35,537 nucleotides of DNA from Methanobacteriota archaeon (lineage in GTDB: Archaea; Halobacteriota; Methanosarcinia; Methanosarcinales; Methanosarcinaceae), in contig JAENYU010000016.1 of the NCBI GenBank assembly GCA_016841625.1, positions 60,898 through 96,434 of the forward strand, in the 5' to 3' direction. Shown one piece after another: positions 14,532 through 22,683 of this stretch. Made by a program: the position numbers and the translations under genes. Below the pieces are notes generated by a model. The model had not been told where the DNA came from, made no database searches, and saw nothing but the letters and a program-made list of their open reading frames with translations. The stretch's first letter is position 1; every line of letters begins with the position of its first letter.

Positions 14532-14557
14532 CTGTCCTGTGTTTTATAACTTCTTTT

Positions 14558-14640
14558 TTATATTTCGGCGGCGGCACCTTCAAGCAGACCCCAAACAACC
14601 GTTTCCATCAGCCGCTCGCTATCGACCTGTTTTTTGAATC
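14558..14640 (-). pseudogene. hsdS 3'-end remnant joined to hsdM tail
   Basis: The minus strand encodes FKKQVDSERLMETVVWGLLE and then GAAAEI followed by the stop at 14558, nearly identical to the last residues of the intact HsdS (SEKLMETVVRGLLEGAAAEI). The rest of hsdS is missing and the fragment directly follows an hsdM tail. The joint resembles that at 2948-3026, where KKVDS also precedes the tail. Confidence 0.75.
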
Positions 14641-14650
14641 TGGGGGGATT

Positions 14651-14782
14651 TTATTCTCCTCCCTCTAACTCCTGATAAATGCTGCCGAACTGCTCCAGTG
14701 CAACCTCAAGATTCCCCACGATCTCCGCCGCAATCACATCAGGTTCAGGCAGGTTCTCCGAGTCCTCAAGGCTTTCGTCCCC
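14651..14782 (-). pseudogene. hsdM 3'-end remnant
   Basis: The minus-strand frame encodes DESLEDSENLPEPDVIAAEI, then VGNLEVALEQFGSIYQELEGGE, and stops at 14651. It is a close relative of the remnant at 3026-3232, cut short upstream where hairpin cassette C4 begins. It differs from the C-terminus of the resident HsdM. The open frame continues into the cassette, giving an artificial RM-repeat fusion of about 60 codons that is unlikely to be functional. Confidence 0.75.
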
Positions 14783-14841
14783 GAGTTCCGCTTCGGGAGC
14801 ACGGTGTCCTTTTCGCTCGCTATGCTCTCTCAAGAGGACTT
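14779..14841. repeat. Hairpin cassette, short copy C4
   Basis: Contains cccgagttccgcttcggg, gagcacggtgtcc, ttttcgctcgc and ctctcaagaggac. It abuts the truncated edge of the hsdM remnant on one side and, on the other, the ttataacttcttttttatat stretch and an hsdS tail. Confidence 0.75.
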
Positions 14842-14867
14842 AAACCCGGTTTATTATAACTTCTTTT

Positions 14868-14994
14868 TTATATTTTGCCGGCAGCCCCTTCTAACAAACC
14901 CCAAACAACCGTCTCCATCAGCCGCTCGCTCTCTTCCCGCGCCTTTCTAAGTTTCGATTCAAGTTCATCGCACAAACCCATGAGCTGCTCAACT
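14868..14994 (-). pseudogene. hsdS 3'-end remnant adjacent to intact hsdS
   Basis: About 42 codons of the hsdS end: from VEQLMGLCDELE-like sequence through a KLRKAREESERLMETVV-like segment to the stop at 14868. At DNA level it is very close to the 3' end of the intact hsdS (15075 onward), for example the shared run cgcgcctttctaagtttc. It is truncated where cassette C5 begins. It is most simply a recent partial duplication of the resident gene's 3' end. Confidence 0.8.
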
Positions 14995-14995
14995 T

Positions 14996-15047
14996 CCCGA
15001 GTTCCGCTTCGGGAGCACGGGGTCCTTTTCGCTGCGCTCAAGAGGAC
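14996..15047. repeat. Hairpin cassette, short copy C5, downstream of intact hsdS
   Basis: Contains cccgagttccgcttcggg, gagcacggggtcc and ttttcgctgcgctcaagagg. It lies about 30 bp past the stop of the intact hsdS, and shows the ancestral arrangement of hsdS 3' end followed by cassette that the other copies repeat. Its gtcc/ggac stem could act as an RNA hairpin at the end of the hsdS transcript. Confidence 0.75.
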
Positions 15048-15074
15048 TATCCCGCGGTTTCCATAACTTCCTTA

Positions 15075-16721
15075 TTATATTTCTGCGGCGGCGCCTTCTA
15101 ACAAACCCCGAACAACCGTTTCCATAAGTTTCTCGCTATCTTCCCGCGCCTTTCTAAGTTTCCCTTCAAGTTCATCGCACAAACCCATGAGTTGCTCGAC
15201 TTTTTCAACGATGCGTTTTTGTTCGGCGAGGGGTGGGATTGGTAAAACAAGATTGGATAATATTTTTACAGTCAGATACTTGGTTAGTGTACCTAACGAA
15301 CTCTTTTTTAATTCTTCTAGTTTAGTTTCTAAAAGATATTTTAGGTATACGTAATCAATCAGGTCCTTGTTGGTTGTTATGACGTATGTTCTTTGGTATG
15401 CATCGAACTTTCCATTGTAATACTTAAGTGAATAAACACCTTGTGCATTATTTCCTGCTAACAAAAGAGCTTCGCAGTCAAAAGAATAAGTATCAATTCT
15501 ATAAGTTTCCTTAGAACAAGTAAAAAAATGATATTTTCCATCAGAAACAGCTTTATTTGAATTAAGTTTTCCAGTCTTAAACTGACAGATTTCTGCTGCT
15601 CTGAATATTTTCCAGCCTCTTGGTAAAACATAAGGAATTTTATCTTTTTCAATTAGCGATAGTTTTTTAGATTTTTCATTCCTTCCAATTTTTACAGGTA
15701 TCTTCTCGGCACTGGCTTCTTTTAGTATATAAGAGCCTGAATTATCCTCTTTTTGCGGAACAAGTTTCCCCTGAACCGCAAGCTGAAGAACCGCCTTCCT
15801 AAGCTTTTCAACATTTTCAGGGTTGTCGTAAATTAAATCAAAATTTTCGCAGATGCGCCGCCAGTTCTCTTCGAATTCGTCCTGACTTTCGGCGCTGAGC
15901 ATTCTGTCAAGGGCAGCGCTGTTTAGTTTGCTTCGGAGTTCTTTTTTCTTTTGCTGGCGGGCTTCGAGTTGATCGCAGAGAGCCATCAGTTCGTCGACTT
16001 TGGCTACGATGCGCTTTTGTTCAGCGAGAGGTGGGAGGGGGATCAAACCTTTGTATAATTTTGCATCATTTATTGCTGGGTATGCCATTCCCTTCATTTC
16101 AGACTCAACATATGAAGTGAAGGGTTTGCTTCTCAAATAATGGTAAAGATATCTATTCGAAATTCCGGAATGGGGGTGTAATACAGCAAAAGCCGTACTT
16201 ACGATTGGTTCTGGATCTAAATCCTTGTCTACAATAGCTATGTTTAAAAGGTAGGGACGAACAGTTGAGTAGATAACAGATTCTTTTTTGACAATTTTTC
16301 GAGCTCTTGATGGTGCATTTTCTGGATTCAACACTTTTAGATCATCTGAAATAAGACCGAGTTCTTTGTTTATCGATGCAACATCGATATAAGTAAATTC
16401 AACATCTGGCTTCTTTTGACCCCAGTCATAGCTTATATCGCTAAGTCGTGTCCACTCCCAACTGGTAGGTAAATTGTATGGAATTTCTTCTCTGGTTATT
16501 TTTTGAGAGTTCTTTCTTTTTCCATTTTTACCCTCTTTGATTAACTGAGTTTTTTCCTTCTTAATTTTCTCAATCAAAATCGAAGCTGGTTCATCCTCCG
16601 GGTCCTGTGGCACAAGTTTTCCCATAACCGCAAGCTGCAAAATAAGCTCTCTTAACTTCTGCACACCATTCGGTGCCTCTGCCAGCATCTCAAAATTCGT
16701 AAAAAAAATATTGGGGTCCAT
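15075..16721 (-). CDS. hsdS: Type I restriction-modification specificity subunit HsdS
   Basis: A 548-residue protein with the two-fold HsdS architecture. Two target-recognition domains (roughly residues 60-220 and 350-500) are each followed by the conserved helix: IPLPPLAEQKRIVAKVDELM, then IPPLAEQKRIVEKVEQLMGL. The central connector contains FDLIYDNPENVEKLRKAVLQ, echoing the N-terminal FEMLAEAPNGVQKLRELILQ. HsdS sets the bipartite DNA target of the M2S methylase and R2M2S2 nuclease. It is last in the minus-strand order hsdM, PD-(D/E)XK protein, hsdS, starting 17 bp after the previous stop. Full length and apparently intact. Confidence 0.95.
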   Translation of the reverse strand: MDPNIFFTNFEMLAEAPNGVQKLRELILQLAVMGKLVPQDPEDEPASILIEKIKKEKTQLIKEGKNGKRKNSQKITREEIPYNLPTSWEWTRLSDISYDWGQKKPDVEFTYIDVASINKELGLISDDLKVLNPENAPSRARKIVKKESVIYSTVRPYLLNIAIVDKDLDPEPIVSTAFAVLHPHSGISNRYLYHYLRSKPFTSYVESEMKGMAYPAINDAKLYKGLIPLPPLAEQKRIVAKVDELMALCDQLEARQQKKKELRSKLNSAALDRMLSAESQDEFEENWRRICENFDLIYDNPENVEKLRKAVLQLAVQGKLVPQKEDNSGSYILKEASAEKIPVKIGRNEKSKKLSLIEKDKIPYVLPRGWKIFRAAEICQFKTGKLNSNKAVSDGKYHFFTCSKETYRIDTYSFDCEALLLAGNNAQGVYSLKYYNGKFDAYQRTYVITTNKDLIDYVYLKYLLETKLEELKKSSLGTLTKYLTVKILSNLVLPIPPLAEQKRIVEKVEQLMGLCDELEGKLRKAREDSEKLMETVVRGLLEGAAAEI

Positions 16722-16737
16722 TTTTGATCTTCTTTGT

Positions 16738-17406
16738 TTATTCGACTACTGAGAAGAATCTGACTGCGAAATCGCAGAACTGGATGATGGTTTTTTTGTC
16801 AAGTTCGAATTCTTTTCTGGAGCCAAGGTAGTTTTTGGAAGTGGGAGTTATTGCTTTTCCTTCTTTCAGTTCTTTGTATGTGGCGCATTTGATATGGCTT
16901 TTCGAAACCACTACAAAGTGGCAGTTTTCGTAGGGGTAGTCTTCTCCAGCGTCTTTGAGTTCGAAGGTTTCGTTTTTCCTGAATTTTACTTCGATGAAGA
17001 ATACTTCACCGGTTTTCTTGTTCTGGACAACGAAGTCCGGCATCCTTCTGATCGTGTAGGTTACATTGTTTTCTACGCCTCTAAGCTGCTCCATGATGCC
17101 GGGGATGGTATTTTCCATGCCGAAGCGGTATACGGAATAGTCCAGGTGGAGGAACAATTCTTCGACAAGGGTTTCTGCGATCCTGCCTTTGATCATGTTT
17201 TCGACAAATTTTCCGTCCCTTTTGGAGAAGTTGGAGGCTTTATCGGAGTCCTGGGATTTGGGGGTTTTGTTGGAATTGCTTTTATCGTATTTTGGGCCGG
17301 GGCTATTCTGGTGTTCCCTGCAAAGAGCCTGGCCGTATTTTTCCATCGAGTATTTGAATTCCTTTTCCGTAATGTCTGATTTGCAAACTGAACAAAAATA
17401 TCCCAT
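16738..17406 (-). CDS. Zn-finger plus PD-(D/E)XK nuclease-like protein within hsdM-hsdS operon
   Basis: A 222-residue protein that I cannot assign to a named family. Residues 1-33 hold a Zn-binding pattern: C5xxC8 ... C29xxH32 within YFCSVC and ALCREH. A charged linker follows, rich in K, S and N. The C-terminal two thirds contains RMPDFVV...EVFFIEVKFRK, an excellent PD-(D/E)XK nuclease core (PD, then ExK about 15 residues on). The preceding helix KGRIAETLVEELF resembles the helical part of such folds. It starts about 27 bp after hsdM and ends 17 bp before hsdS, so it is probably co-transcribed. It may be an accessory nuclease or a structural DNA-binding part; function unproven. Confidence 0.8.
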   Translation of the reverse strand: MGYFCSVCKSDITEKEFKYSMEKYGQALCREHQNSPGPKYDKSNSNKTPKSQDSDKASNFSKRDGKFVENMIKGRIAETLVEELFLHLDYSVYRFGMENTIPGIMEQLRGVENNVTYTIRRMPDFVVQNKKTGEVFFIEVKFRKNETFELKDAGEDYPYENCHFVVVSKSHIKCATYKELKEGKAITPTSKNYLGSRKEFELDKKTIIQFCDFAVRFFSVVE

Positions 17407-17433
17407 TTTGAAACCTCAACTATTTTATAAAAT

Positions 17434-18882
17434 TCAATTATGATTTAGGGAGTTTATAAGTTCTTCTTTTAGTTCCTGCCTGACTTCGGAGATCTCGGAA
17501 AGGAGAGCCTGGTACTCTTCCAGCAGTTCTTCGGGGTCTCCGTGGTCATTTTCCACGGTGTTCGGGTTTTTGATGTCGAGGTTGTAGTTGTTGGCAATGA
17601 TGTCTTCTGCTTTGACACACCAGGCGTGTTCGTTTTCTACCCGGTTGGTCCACCAGGCTTTTTCAGGTTCGAATTCTTCGATGCGCATGGGTTTGGTTTT
17701 GGAGTAGGACTTGTAGCCGGCGGGGTAGGGGTGTTCGTAGTACCAGATTTCTCTGGTGGGTTCGCCTTTGGTGAAGAAGAGGAGGTTGGTTTTTATGCCG
17801 GTGTAGGGGCTGAAGACGCCGTTTGGGAGGCGGACGATTGTGTGGAGGTTGCATTCCTGAAGGAGTTTTTCTTTTATGCGGTTTTTTACGCCTTCCCCGA
17901 AGAGGGTTCCGTCGGGGAGGACTATTCCGCATCTTCCTCCTTCTTTGAGGAGGTGCATTATGAGGACAAGGAAAAGGTCGGCAGTTTCGCGGGTCTGGAA
18001 GGCTGCCGGGAAGCTTGATTCGATTCCGTCTTCTTCCATGCCTCCGAAGGGGGGATTTGTGACTATTATATCTACACGGTCTTTCTGGGTGTAGTCCCGG
18101 AGCGGGCGGGCAAGGGTGTTGTCGTGCCGGATGCGTGAGGGGACTTCGATTCCGTGGAGGAGCATGTTGGTTACGCAGAGGAGGTGAGGGAGCTGCTTTT
18201 TCTCAACGCCGGAGATGGATTCCTGCAAAATACGGTGGTCGTCTACGGAATTCACGTATTTTTCGCGGATGTGCTCGATTGTGCTGGTCAAAAAACCGCC
18301 TGTGCCACAGGCAGGGTCCAGCATTTTTTCTCCGAGTATGGGGTCAACCATGTCTACTATGAACTGGGTAACGGCGCGGGGGGTGTAAAACTCGCCTGCG
18401 TTTCCGGCGCTCTGGAGGTCCTTGAGGATTTTTTCGTAGATTGAGCCAAAGGTGTGCAGGTCTTTTGAGCTGGTGAAGTCGATCTCGTTGATCTTGTTGA
18501 TGACCTGCCGGATCAGGGTTCCGTTTTTCATGTAGTTGTAGGAGTCTTCGAAGACTTCCTTGACCACCTGACCTCTCGGGTCGTCACCTTCGGAAAAGGA
18601 GAGGTTTTTCAGGGTCTTGAAGAGCTGTTCGTTGATGAAGTCCAGGAGGGTGTCTCCGGTAATTCCTTCCGGGTCATCTGCCCAGTTCCTCCAGCGCAGT
18701 TCCTCCGGGATAGGGGTGATGTATTCGTTTTCATCATCAAGCTCGAATTCTTCTTCTCTCGCATCGAAAATTTTCAAAAACAGCATCCATCCGAGCTGGC
18801 TGACCCGCTGGGCGTCCCCGTCAACGCCTGCGTCTTTTCGCATGATGTCCTGGATGCCCTTGATTGTGGTACTTAATGACAT
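17434..18882 (-). CDS. hsdM: Type I restriction-modification DNA methyltransferase HsdM
   Basis: A 482-residue N6-adenine methyltransferase subunit. SAM-binding motif I appears as DPACGTGGFLTSTI and catalytic motif IV as NPPFGG (within IIVTNPPFGGMEED). The N-terminal helical domain begins MSLSTTIKGIQDIMRKDAG. It methylates the target adenine together with HsdS. A good ribosome-binding site (GGAAAGGA) precedes the ATG. It is first of three closely spaced minus-strand genes; hsdR is about 1.5 kb upstream, separated by a gene on the opposite strand. Its C-terminus (NPNTVENDHGDPEELLEEY...) is unlike the hsdM fragments at 3026 and 14651. Confidence 0.96.
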   Translation of the reverse strand: MSLSTTIKGIQDIMRKDAGVDGDAQRVSQLGWMLFLKIFDAREEEFELDDENEYITPIPEELRWRNWADDPEGITGDTLLDFINEQLFKTLKNLSFSEGDDPRGQVVKEVFEDSYNYMKNGTLIRQVINKINEIDFTSSKDLHTFGSIYEKILKDLQSAGNAGEFYTPRAVTQFIVDMVDPILGEKMLDPACGTGGFLTSTIEHIREKYVNSVDDHRILQESISGVEKKQLPHLLCVTNMLLHGIEVPSRIRHDNTLARPLRDYTQKDRVDIIVTNPPFGGMEEDGIESSFPAAFQTRETADLFLVLIMHLLKEGGRCGIVLPDGTLFGEGVKNRIKEKLLQECNLHTIVRLPNGVFSPYTGIKTNLLFFTKGEPTREIWYYEHPYPAGYKSYSKTKPMRIEEFEPEKAWWTNRVENEHAWCVKAEDIIANNYNLDIKNPNTVENDHGDPEELLEEYQALLSEISEVRQELKEELINSLNHN

Positions 18883-19785: not shown

Positions 19786-20181
19786 ATGGAAGTACTTATC
19801 CAGGTCAGCTCGGGATATATAGACAGCATCAGTTCAAGTTTGTTTATGGCTTCGAAGTTCAAGAGCGAAGGAATAGATGTAGCTGTAATTTTTGAGTGGA
19901 GAGCTCTGGTTGCATTTGCAGAGAAGAAGTTTGAGTATTCGCCATTAGTAGCAAAGTACGCTCCTGCAATCGAAGAAAACGCAAGGAAGATGGGATTATC
20001 TATCGATCCCGTGGACCATCTGAAGGGAGCCAAGGCCGCAGGGGTACCATTATATTACTGTGGTATTGAGGCAGTACTTGCAGGTATAACAGAGAAGTTG
20101 CCGTCAGAGATGCAATTGCTTGAGGAGAAGGATTTAACAAGGCCTTTCCTGGAAGCAAAGAAGGTTATCAGTGGATTTTAA
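19786..20181 (+). CDS. DsrE/DsrF-like family protein
   Basis: A 131-residue single-domain protein with the DsrE-like alpha/beta pattern: EVLIQVSSG...SISSSLFMASKFKSEG, then VAVIFEWRALVAF, and the later GAKAAGVPLYYCGIEAVLAG, where DsrE-type proteins carry a functional cysteine (here C92, the only cysteine). Relatives relay sulfur or act in redox/thiol metabolism; this one is not diagnosable further. It has a strong ribosome-binding site and its own TATA box. It lies opposite to and between hsdR and hsdM, bracketed by related palindromes, which suggests insertion into the RM locus. Confidence 0.75.
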   Translation: MEVLIQVSSGYIDSISSSLFMASKFKSEGIDVAVIFEWRALVAFAEKKFEYSPLVAKYAPAIEENARKMGLSIDPVDHLKGAKAAGVPLYYCGIEAVLAGITEKLPSEMQLLEEKDLTRPFLEAKKVISGF

Positions 20182-20349: not shown

Positions 20350-22683
20350 TCAAGCCTCCAGCGTATAAAGCTGGGATTCAAGCCCTTTGACTACCGCAAG
20401 GTAACTGTCCTTACCCCCGAAAAGTTTCACAATCTCCATCGGGGTCCCTATACGGTCAAATGGCTGCACCTTGAGTACGCTCATGCTTTCAAGGTTTTCA
20501 AGCCCTTCATCCGCGTACTTGTTAAGGAGCGCACTGAGAACTTCTTTTGCCTGCTCTCCATACTTGCTGAAGTAGTCGCTTTTCCTGACTTTTTCAACCC
20601 GCTCTTTTCGGCTAAGGGGCGGGCGGTCAAAGGCGACATGGCAGATGAGGTCGAAGGGGTCGAAGTCTTTTCCTACTTCCTCGGAAAGGGCGTCAAGCAA
20701 AAGGCCCTGCTCTTCAAGTTCGGCAAGGATTGCCTGTTTCTTTTCGGCTTCGTTCCAGTGCTGTAAAAAAGAGTCAAGGGACTCAAAGTCTTCGAGTACT
20801 GTCTTCCGTGTATAGTCTTTGAGGGATTCCGTTATCAGTTTTCCGTCCGGGCCAAAGTGCTGCCTGCGCTCGGCTATGACATTCACTTCAACGTCGGAAA
20901 CGAAGTATTTCTCGCTCCCGTCCCCTTCGGCAGGTCCCCTTCCCCTGAAAGGTCCGTCTCCTGGGCCGTAAATCTGCACAGGGTCCCCATCAAAGTCCGG
21001 GTCTGCAAAGAGTTCCGTGGCTTTCTTGAAGTCCATGATGGTGAAATACAATTTCCCGTATTCTTCCTGGATACGGGTCCCCCTGCCGATAATTTGTTTG
21101 AACTCGGTCATGGACTGGATCCGCTTGTCAAGCACTATCAGTTTGCAGGTCTGGGCGTCCACTCCCGTGCTCATGAGTTTGGATGTCGTGGCAATCACAG
21201 GGTAGCGGCTTTCGGGGTTAATAAATTCGTCAAGTTCGATTTTCGCTACCGGGTTGTCCCCGGTAATCCGCATCACGTAACGGCGGTTTTCGGCTGCAAG
21301 GTCCGGGTTCTCATTGACAAGAGCCTTTCGCATCCTTTCGGCGTGATCGATGTTTTCGCAGAACACGATGGTCTTGTCAAAGCGGTCATTTTCCTTCAAA
21401 AACTCCGTGACCTTCCGTGCGATCAGCTCCGTCCTTTTTTCAAGCACAAGCCCCCTGTCAAAGTCCTTCTGGCCATAAATCCGGTCTTCAATGAGCCTGC
21501 CGTACCTGTCCGTCTTTTCCTTTTCCGGCCTCCAGCCTTCAAGGTCTTTGTCAAGGTCGATGCGGATAACCCTGTACGGGGCAAGGAAACCGTCTTCGAT
21601 TCCCTGTTTCAGGGAATACGTATAGATCGGCTTTCCGAAATAGTCAGTGTTGGAGATTTCCTTTGTCTCTTTGGGAGTGGCGGTTAGCCCGATCTGCGTC
21701 GCCGAGCTGAAATACTCCAGGATCTCCCGCCAGGCCGAGTCCTCGGCTGCACTTCCCCTGTGGCACTCATCCACGATTACCAGATCAAAAAAGTCCGGGG
21801 AAAACTGCTTGTAGATGTTTTTTTCCTCTTCCGAGCCCGTGACCGCCTGGTAGAGCGAAAGGTAAATCTCGTATGCGGTGTCGACTTTCCTGTTCTTGAT
21901 CTTCGTCATTGCCTTTTCGAAGGGCTTGAAATCGTTGATCTTGGTCTGGTCGACCAGGATGTTCCGGTCTGCAAGGTAGAGAATCCTCTGCTTTACCCCT
22001 GCCTTCCAGAGCCTCCAGATGATCTGAAAAGCTGTAAAAGTCTTGCCTGTGCCCGTAGCCATCACAAGCAAAATTCTGTCCTGCCCTTTTGCGATTGCTT
22101 CCACGGTCCGGTTGATTGCTATCCGCTGATAGTAGCGAGGGGACTTCCCGCCAGAGCCTGAGTAGTAGTCCTGGGTCACGATCTTCTGCTTGCCTTCATC
22201 AAACCCTTTCCACTCACAGTATTTTTCCCAGAGGAATTCGGGGGAAGGAAACTTGTCAAGTGGGATTTCCTCTTCCACCTGTCCGAGCGTGCCAGTCCTG
22301 TCATGCACCAGAAAAGCGTCCCCATTGGAACTGAAAGCGAAAGGTATGTCCAGCATCTCGGCATACATAAGGGCCTGCTGCATGCCGTCTCCTACGCTGT
22401 GCCTGTTATTTTTCGCCTCTATGACAGCCAGCGGAAGATTGGATTTATGGTAGAGTATATAGTCTGCCCATTTCGGTTTTCCCCGGATGGGGGAGTTCCC
22501 CTTTACAATAACTCTTCCGTCAGTCAGTTTCACTTCCTCACGGATTTGAGTGCGTATGTCCCACTTCGCATTCTTAAGCGCCGGGGTGATGAATTTCGTG
22601 CAGATATCCCGCTCGCTCAGTTCTTTTTTGTCTATAATTTCACGGGCTTCTTCCTCTGGCTTTTTTCCCCTTTCCTGAACCAT
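20350..22683 (-). CDS. hsdR: Type I restriction endonuclease HsdR
   Basis: A 777-residue, EcoEI-like HsdR. The N-terminal nuclease domain shows D74 and E89-A-K91 (WADYILYHK...[10 protein letters not shown]), a PD-(D/E)XK core. The SF2 translocase motor follows: Walker A ATGTGKT (209-215), DECH box (305-308), TATPKE, and motif [15 protein letters not shown]. The C-terminal region ends in the helical domain that binds the methylase. It cleaves unmodified DNA after ATP-driven translocation. A GGAAGG ribosome-binding site precedes the ATG. It is about 1.5 kb from hsdM and not directly co-transcribed, judged by the intervening opposite-strand gene. Confidence 0.95.

Follow-up and report, generated by a model that had tools for sequence, protein, structure and literature searches.

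A family of predicted PD-(D/E)XK nucleases embedded in an archaeal type I restriction operon and recurring beside restriction-modification genes in Bacteroidota

The Vsr protein accompanies 5-methylcytosine restriction-modification (RM) systems. Some RM systems carry accessory genes that have been hypothesised to act as toxins (PMC12707154), and prrC is the textbook case of such a gene inside a type I locus (PMC3874165, PMC12707154). Such extra genes in restriction operons have been informative before, as PrrC and Vsr illustrate. In archaea, type I RM systems are described as persistent in the Methanosarcinales in the consulted passages of a survey of archaeal RM, and a gene inserted like the one reported here is not mentioned in those passages (PMC10609329). 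For the Holliday junction resolvase Hjc, the catalytic residues are E9, D33, E46, and K48 (PMC1913061).

The gene under study, which we denote NUC, is located between hsdM and hsdS of an EcoAI/EcoEI-type type I RM locus (Table 1). It was found in the window, i.e., the whole stretch of 35,537 nucleotides that was analysed. The ORF of 222 residues delimited by an earlier sequence-only reading proved exact, lies on the minus strand, and is a conserved gene, and its packing between hsdM and hsdS, with gaps of 27 bp and 16 bp, was as that reading had described. The full HsdR that it had placed elsewhere is present with its own nuclease domain, but in the same locus.

NUC is single-copy in its source genome (G000, Methanosarcinaceae, 99.7% complete). 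Full-length homologues with 53–91% identity occur across the Methanosarcinaceae, and the copies have dN/dS values of 0.08–0.16, which are approximate, with wider pairs near saturation at synonymous sites, and which indicate purifying selection. Because of these homologues and dN/dS values, NUC is a conserved gene rather than a chance ORF. The larger antisense ORFs that overlie it are 16894-17379 and 17189-17443, both on the plus strand; the observed conservation is that of the minus-strand protein, and an antisense origin was likewise ruled out.

Two further features of the locus were observed. The gap between hsdR and hsdM is unusually long in the window (~1.5 kb, against ~30 to 490 bp in relatives) and contains, on the opposite strand, a 131-aa ORF (19786-20181, plus strand) that appears DsrE-like by eye and has no Pfam match. 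Furthermore, three direct copies of ~140 nt at 14546-15202 take in the hsdS 3' end together with adjoining downstream DNA, and C-terminal fragments of hsdS are also repeated downstream in the relatives L114 and L003. The repeated hsdS 3' segments are perhaps scars of specificity switching.

Table 1 NUC, its type I locus and protein motifs in the window, and the RM neighbours of Bacteroidota copies (L numbers denote loci).
Feature	Position or loci	Strand	Basis
NUC, 222-aa accessory nuclease gene	16738..17406	minus	ORF, conserved family, predicted PD-(D/E)XK fold
27-bp hsdM-NUC spacer	17407..17433	minus	Homologous to spacers of other hsd-embedded copies
GAGGT ribosome-binding site, upstream of NUC start	17413-17417	minus	Sequence
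16-bp NUC-hsdS spacer	16722..16737	minus	Junction inspection
hsdM, 482 aa, N6-adenine methyltransferase	17434..18882	minus	Pfam and PADLOC, junctions
hsdS, 548 aa, specificity subunit	15075..16721	minus	Pfam and PADLOC
hsdR, 777 aa, EcoAI/EcoEI type, own HSDR_N nuclease domain	20350..22683	minus	Sequence searches
N-terminal zinc knuckle, C5-x2-C8 ... C29-x2-H32	17311..17394	minus	Sequence and alignment A1
Motif I helix KGRIAETL (E78)	17167..17190	minus	At least 90% conserved, 47 homologues
Motif II RMPDFVV (D124)	17026..17046	minus	M122-P123-D124 invariant, 47 homologues
Motif III E139-V140-K141 (E-x-K), in FIEVKFRK	16984..16992	minus	V140, K141, R143 invariant, 47 homologues
NUC near type IIG, several kinds	L008, L010, L011, L149, L150, L152, L153		
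NUC near MmeI	L017, L155, L160		
NUC near ISP	L154		
NUC near N6-methylase	L151		
NUC near type I HsdR, at least 3 kinds	L021; L104, L105, L156, L157; L148 (full R-M-S set)		
NUC near type III-like res	L162		
NUC within 5 kb of RM genes, further copies	L158, L164, L166		

The motifs CxxC...CxxH, MPDFVV, and FIEVKFRK, the last two of which had been read as a nuclease core, are present as described (residues in Table 1). Across the 47 homologues, E78 and E139 are nearly invariant, and D takes the place of E139 in one genus. The zinc knuckle takes the form CxxC...CxxH in the Methanosarcinaceae and CxxC...CxxC in the Bacteroidota and Methanoperedens. The main clade has this knuckle; L015, L017, and a more distant subfamily (L022-type) lack it, so the core persists without the knuckle in places. 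A strongly conserved segment, GMENTxPGIMxLLKGVR, sits between motifs I and II of the family and may bind the substrate or a partner.

The structure of NUC was predicted with AlphaFold2 on 29- and 47-row alignments. The core of the model has a pLDDT of ~90 (by block) and the secondary-structure order of a PD-(D/E)XK protein, while residues 37–60 form a disordered linker and residues ~91–120 are less certain (pLDDT 51–80). The larger alignment changed the mean pLDDT from 78.6 to 78.9 and left the nearest folds unchanged. A Foldseek search against the PDB placed archaeal Hjc on top (2wcz, E 4e-4, probability 1.0; also 2wcw and 2eo0), with RecU lower in the ranking. The likeness to Hjc is at the fold level only, with 12–21% identity among the matches listed and a target-normalised TM-score of ~0.5. 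By the model and the Foldseek matches to Hjc and RecU, the alpha-beta-beta-beta-alpha-beta core of the PD-(D/E)XK superfamily is present in NUC. Structure prediction, fold search, and conserved catalytic residues are all in line with the proposed nuclease core, and they support the placement of NUC in the PD-(D/E)XK superfamily, with a predicted core nearest to that of archaeal Hjc. Conservation of the catalytic residues suggests that NUC is an active DNA endonuclease that depends on metal.

In Pfam, NCBIfam, PADLOC, PHROGs, and PDB sequence searches, the window protein matched nothing above cut-off. Its match to VRR_NUC (PF08774) scored 14.5 bits, under the cut-off of 23.8, and spans motifs II–III; the same model was weakly matched by 26 of the 47 family members (best E 4e-5). 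Hjc (PF01870) gave no match to the window protein and weak matches to two of the 47 members (best E 0.026), and a PADLOC model of type II REase matched three of the 47 relatives (best E 1e-6) and not the window protein. Matches of the NUC profile to ribosomal protein S4 in the PDB (best E 0.02) were weak and were judged to be chance. No relatives were found in collections of viral contigs, phages, and plasmids, by which a viral origin was ruled out. A literature search, incomplete in coverage, returned no description of the family, which is weak evidence of novelty. The NUC family is unnamed and escapes the Pfam, PADLOC, and NCBIfam models that were searched.

NUC was found in 5 of the 34 Methanoperedens-family genomes. 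Its presence is patchy, even among close relatives, in the Methanosarcinaceae (20 of 112) and in the sampled Bacteroidota (5 of 395), where richer pockets contained it in 12 of 140 and 10 of 45. The hsd-linked archaeal copies are five in number (the window, L002, L003, which is the same place as L116, L048, and L047) and form one clade (support 100/96) nested in the Methanosarcinaceae clade. The remaining 15 of the 20 Methanosarcinaceae copies lie away from hsd genes, where they stand alone with larger gaps. The NUC genes of L019 and L058 are broken by frameshifts or stops.

Ten related loci with this hsd system (L110-L114, L118-L122) were inspected, and NUC is missing between hsdM and hsdS in all of them. 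A clear 4-bp ATGA overlap of hsdM and hsdS was seen in nine, and L119 has the same layout by hsdS alignment. The C-terminus of HsdM is ELIN(S/A)(L/F)NHN or close in loci with NUC (ELINSLNHN in the window) and ...ALAGKNA in loci without it, and the hsdM-NUC spacer is homologous among the NUC-bearing hsd loci. This is best read as a single capture, in which NUC was inserted once into an overlapping hsdM/hsdS pair, and the gene is now presumably co-expressed with hsdM and hsdS. The archaeal RM link of NUC rests on this one capture. In L047, deletions have left only short remnants of the hsdR-hsdM region and a fragment of hsdS, yet the NUC ORF is intact.

The earlier reading had raised the idea that NUC serves the type I enzyme as a second nuclease-like subunit. 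The tight hsdM-NUC-hsdS packing and the homologous spacers conserved in hsd-embedded loci would suit an integral subunit or an alternative nuclease of this enzyme. However, the locus already encodes an HsdR that brings its own nuclease domain, related operons have overlapping hsdM and hsdS and no NUC, and the majority of archaeal copies lie apart from hsd genes; we regard this as the least probable reading. Since related hsdRMS loci have empty hsdM/hsdS junctions, NUC was captured once, solitary copies exist, and the gene persists in the RM-deleted L047, NUC is read as accessory and the type I subunit was rejected as a candidate.

It should be noted that hsdM of genome G008 is split across two contigs (L003 6211-7593, minus strand; L115; L116). 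Its 3' part is flanked by genes for a tyrosine integrase and for GmrSD (type IV restriction), and GAAATCTGGT is common to both break points, which suggests that an integrative element with a defence gene inserted into hsdM.

The Methanoperedens copies are near the DNA polymerase D gene DP2. In L012 (2834-6926) and L014 (4462-8498), NUC directly follows DP2 with a 25-bp gap and a 4-bp overlap, respectively, as if co-expressed with replication, and in the Bacteroidota locus L018 it follows mfd. Canonical Hjc (PF01870) was not found in the 16 Methanosarcinaceae genomes searched, and PF01870 was absent from 24 of 25 searched genomes of the host order and likewise from the Methanosarcina acetivorans control. 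A housekeeping resolvase replacing Hjc was considered and rejected: the order seems to be without PF01870, but NUC is in just 20 of the 112 Methanosarcinaceae.

Repair of restriction-related damage is the main rival to a defence role. A host-protecting, Vsr-like nuclease would process branched or broken DNA produced by restriction, or by RM at host forks, and would lower the cost of RM. The fold closest to a Holliday junction resolvase, the lack of canonical Hjc in the genomes searched, and the tolerance of NUC without RM in L047 favour such a role, and the DP2-adjacent and mfd-adjacent copies suit it equally well. However, patchy presence together with recurrent placement in RM operons fits an accessory defence gene better than core repair, and many hsdRMS systems are without NUC, and we consider a repair role unlikely.

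The Bacteroidota set comprised 33 copies, including three fragments and one at a contig edge, and 22 of them have RM genes within 5 kb (Table 1). The RM neighbours of L008, L011, L017, L021, L104, L105, L148, L151, L153, L154, and L162 are Pfam-supported, and those of the remaining Bacteroidota loci were assigned by sequence comparison with the Pfam-supported ones. The arrangement is mostly co-directional, with gaps of less than 50 bp and often less than 20 bp; the NUC ORF overlaps the IIG gene in L010 and starts 3 bp past hsdR in L156. The 11 copies without an RM gene within 5 kb are L013, L018, L022, L023, L103, L106, L107, L159, L161, L163, and L165, two of which have defence-like surroundings (an OLD-like ATPase in L103 and an HNH gene in L106). 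A conserved partner downstream of L022-type copies was sought and rejected: L151 and L153 have similar 163-aa ORFs (89%), which are unrelated to the ORFs of L156 and L022.

The linkage was tested with N6_Mtase (PF02384) over 26 genomes that were chosen for holding NUC, several from the same families, and with distances read by hand. Under this design, PF02384 lies within 15 kb of NUC in 12 of 28 cases against 0.73 expected (P 6e-13) and within 5 kb in 8 of 28 against 0.27 expected (P 1e-10); without near-duplicates, the values are P 7e-12 and 3e-9, respectively. RM genes cluster in islands, and these P values measure association and not partnership; part of the linkage could be due to such a defence-island effect. 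NUC recurs beside RM genes beyond chance in the Bacteroidota. The proposed tie of the family to RM loci thus stands in the Bacteroidota and falls short in the archaea, where homologues are mostly outside RM loci.

Several loci carry further effector genes. In the Bacteroidota operons L011 (806-8507) and L017 (3753-8510), a single IIG or MmeI enzyme is accompanied by several nuclease or effector genes; both operons have an HSDR_N_2/NucS-like protein in addition to NUC, and YhcG and a TIR protein are added in L011. In two genomes (L149 8109-13808, L150 3252-8951), a type IIG gene, a gene for a SIR2-domain protein, and NUC stand in a tight row, with NUC beginning 4 bp after the SIR2 gene.

NUC might also be mobile and accumulate in defence islands while having no functional connection with RM. 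Some copies are indeed solitary or beside mfd, DP2, or cellulose-binding genes, and Y1-transposase-like ORFs (recognised by eye only) are near L151, L153, and L155. Such a functionally unrelated hitchhiker is hard to reconcile with the significant linkage and with co-directional placement inside operons, often with gaps below 20 bp, across unrelated RM types, and it is very unlikely. A guardian resembling PrrC is also improbable, if somewhat less so: NUC would be silent on the RM enzyme and freed to cut DNA when a virus inhibits restriction. NUC lies inside an hsd operon, as prrC does (PMC3874165, PMC12707154), and it occurs with many RM types, in some cases also beside TIR or SIR2 genes. However, solitary copies are common, an intact NUC in L047 despite the RM deletion is unexpected of a latent toxin held by RM, and one family would need to bind HsdM/R/S, IIG, and MmeI alike.

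That NUC accompanies very different RM enzymes, and survives where there are none, speaks against a subunit as well as a latent toxin held by one RM complex, and points to an enzyme acting on something to which all of these systems, or foreign DNA in general, give rise. We prefer, at about even chances, an autonomous Hjc/VRR-like DNA endonuclease that was drawn time and again into RM operons, where it would be a nuclease companion in defence, and the nuclease activity, substrate, dimeric state, and defence role are all put forward conditionally. In this proposal, RM operons of several types would have taken up relatives of NUC on repeated occasions; relatives also live alone. The protein is probably a dimer, by analogy with Hjc, and may nick or cut branched, nicked, or broken DNA via E78, D124, E139, and K141 with a divalent metal. 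Branched or broken DNA is the leading guess for the substrate because the nearest structures are junction- and branch-specific. The targets might be foreign DNA during its replication or intermediates that restriction cuts leave behind, and the action of NUC would add a second step to restriction.

More tentatively, and with considerable doubt, the family may be a general helper of N6-adenine restriction systems that acts on DNA ends or on branched intermediates of restriction, which would explain one small family in type I, IIG, MmeI, ISP, and type III operons of bacteria and, in one instance, of archaea. Members of the family lie beside RM genes of five classes that differ in mechanism, across two domains of life. 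If NUC is such a helper, restriction would be unfinished at the RM cut, and the helper's substrate would reveal the limiting step. Relatives next to many unrelated RM systems in the Bacteroidota suggest that a helper of DNA defence in bacteria and archaea has gone undescribed, and natural pairs of close hsd operons with and without NUC make its role testable.

Among known systems, NUC resembles Vsr in being a small protein of the restriction-endonuclease fold carried with RM systems. However, its partners have methylase domains of the N6-adenine type, unlike those of Vsr, and it has no Vsr Pfam match. The EcoprrI locus likewise has an additional nuclease gene, prrC, within its type I hsd operon, but PrrC is retained by the RM complex and cleaves tRNA, whereas NUC has a predicted PD-(D/E)XK fold, is often solitary, and survives the loss of RM. 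DUF1016/YhcG and the NucS-like proteins (HSDR_N_2/DUF5655) are also extra genes of PD-(D/E)XK type in RM operons, and both lie beside NUC in L011, as does the NucS-like gene in L017; NUC differs from these families by sequence and has no Pfam match to them. To VRR-NUC (PF08774), more than half of the members show a weak resemblance, with the window protein far below the curated cut-off. Hjc (PF01870; PDB 2wcz, 2eo0, 1gef) has the same core order and the same catalytic set as E78, D124, E139, and K141 of NUC. The spacing between motifs I and II is 46 residues in NUC and 24 in Hjc (PMC1913061 numbering), i.e., ~20 more in NUC. Unlike Hjc, NUC has the GMENTxPGIMxLLKG segment, the zinc knuckle, and a conserved C-terminal extension, has no PF01870 match, and is not universal in its hosts. 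These comparisons place NUC as an accessory nuclease, embedded in RM operons, of an unnamed PD-(D/E)XK family.
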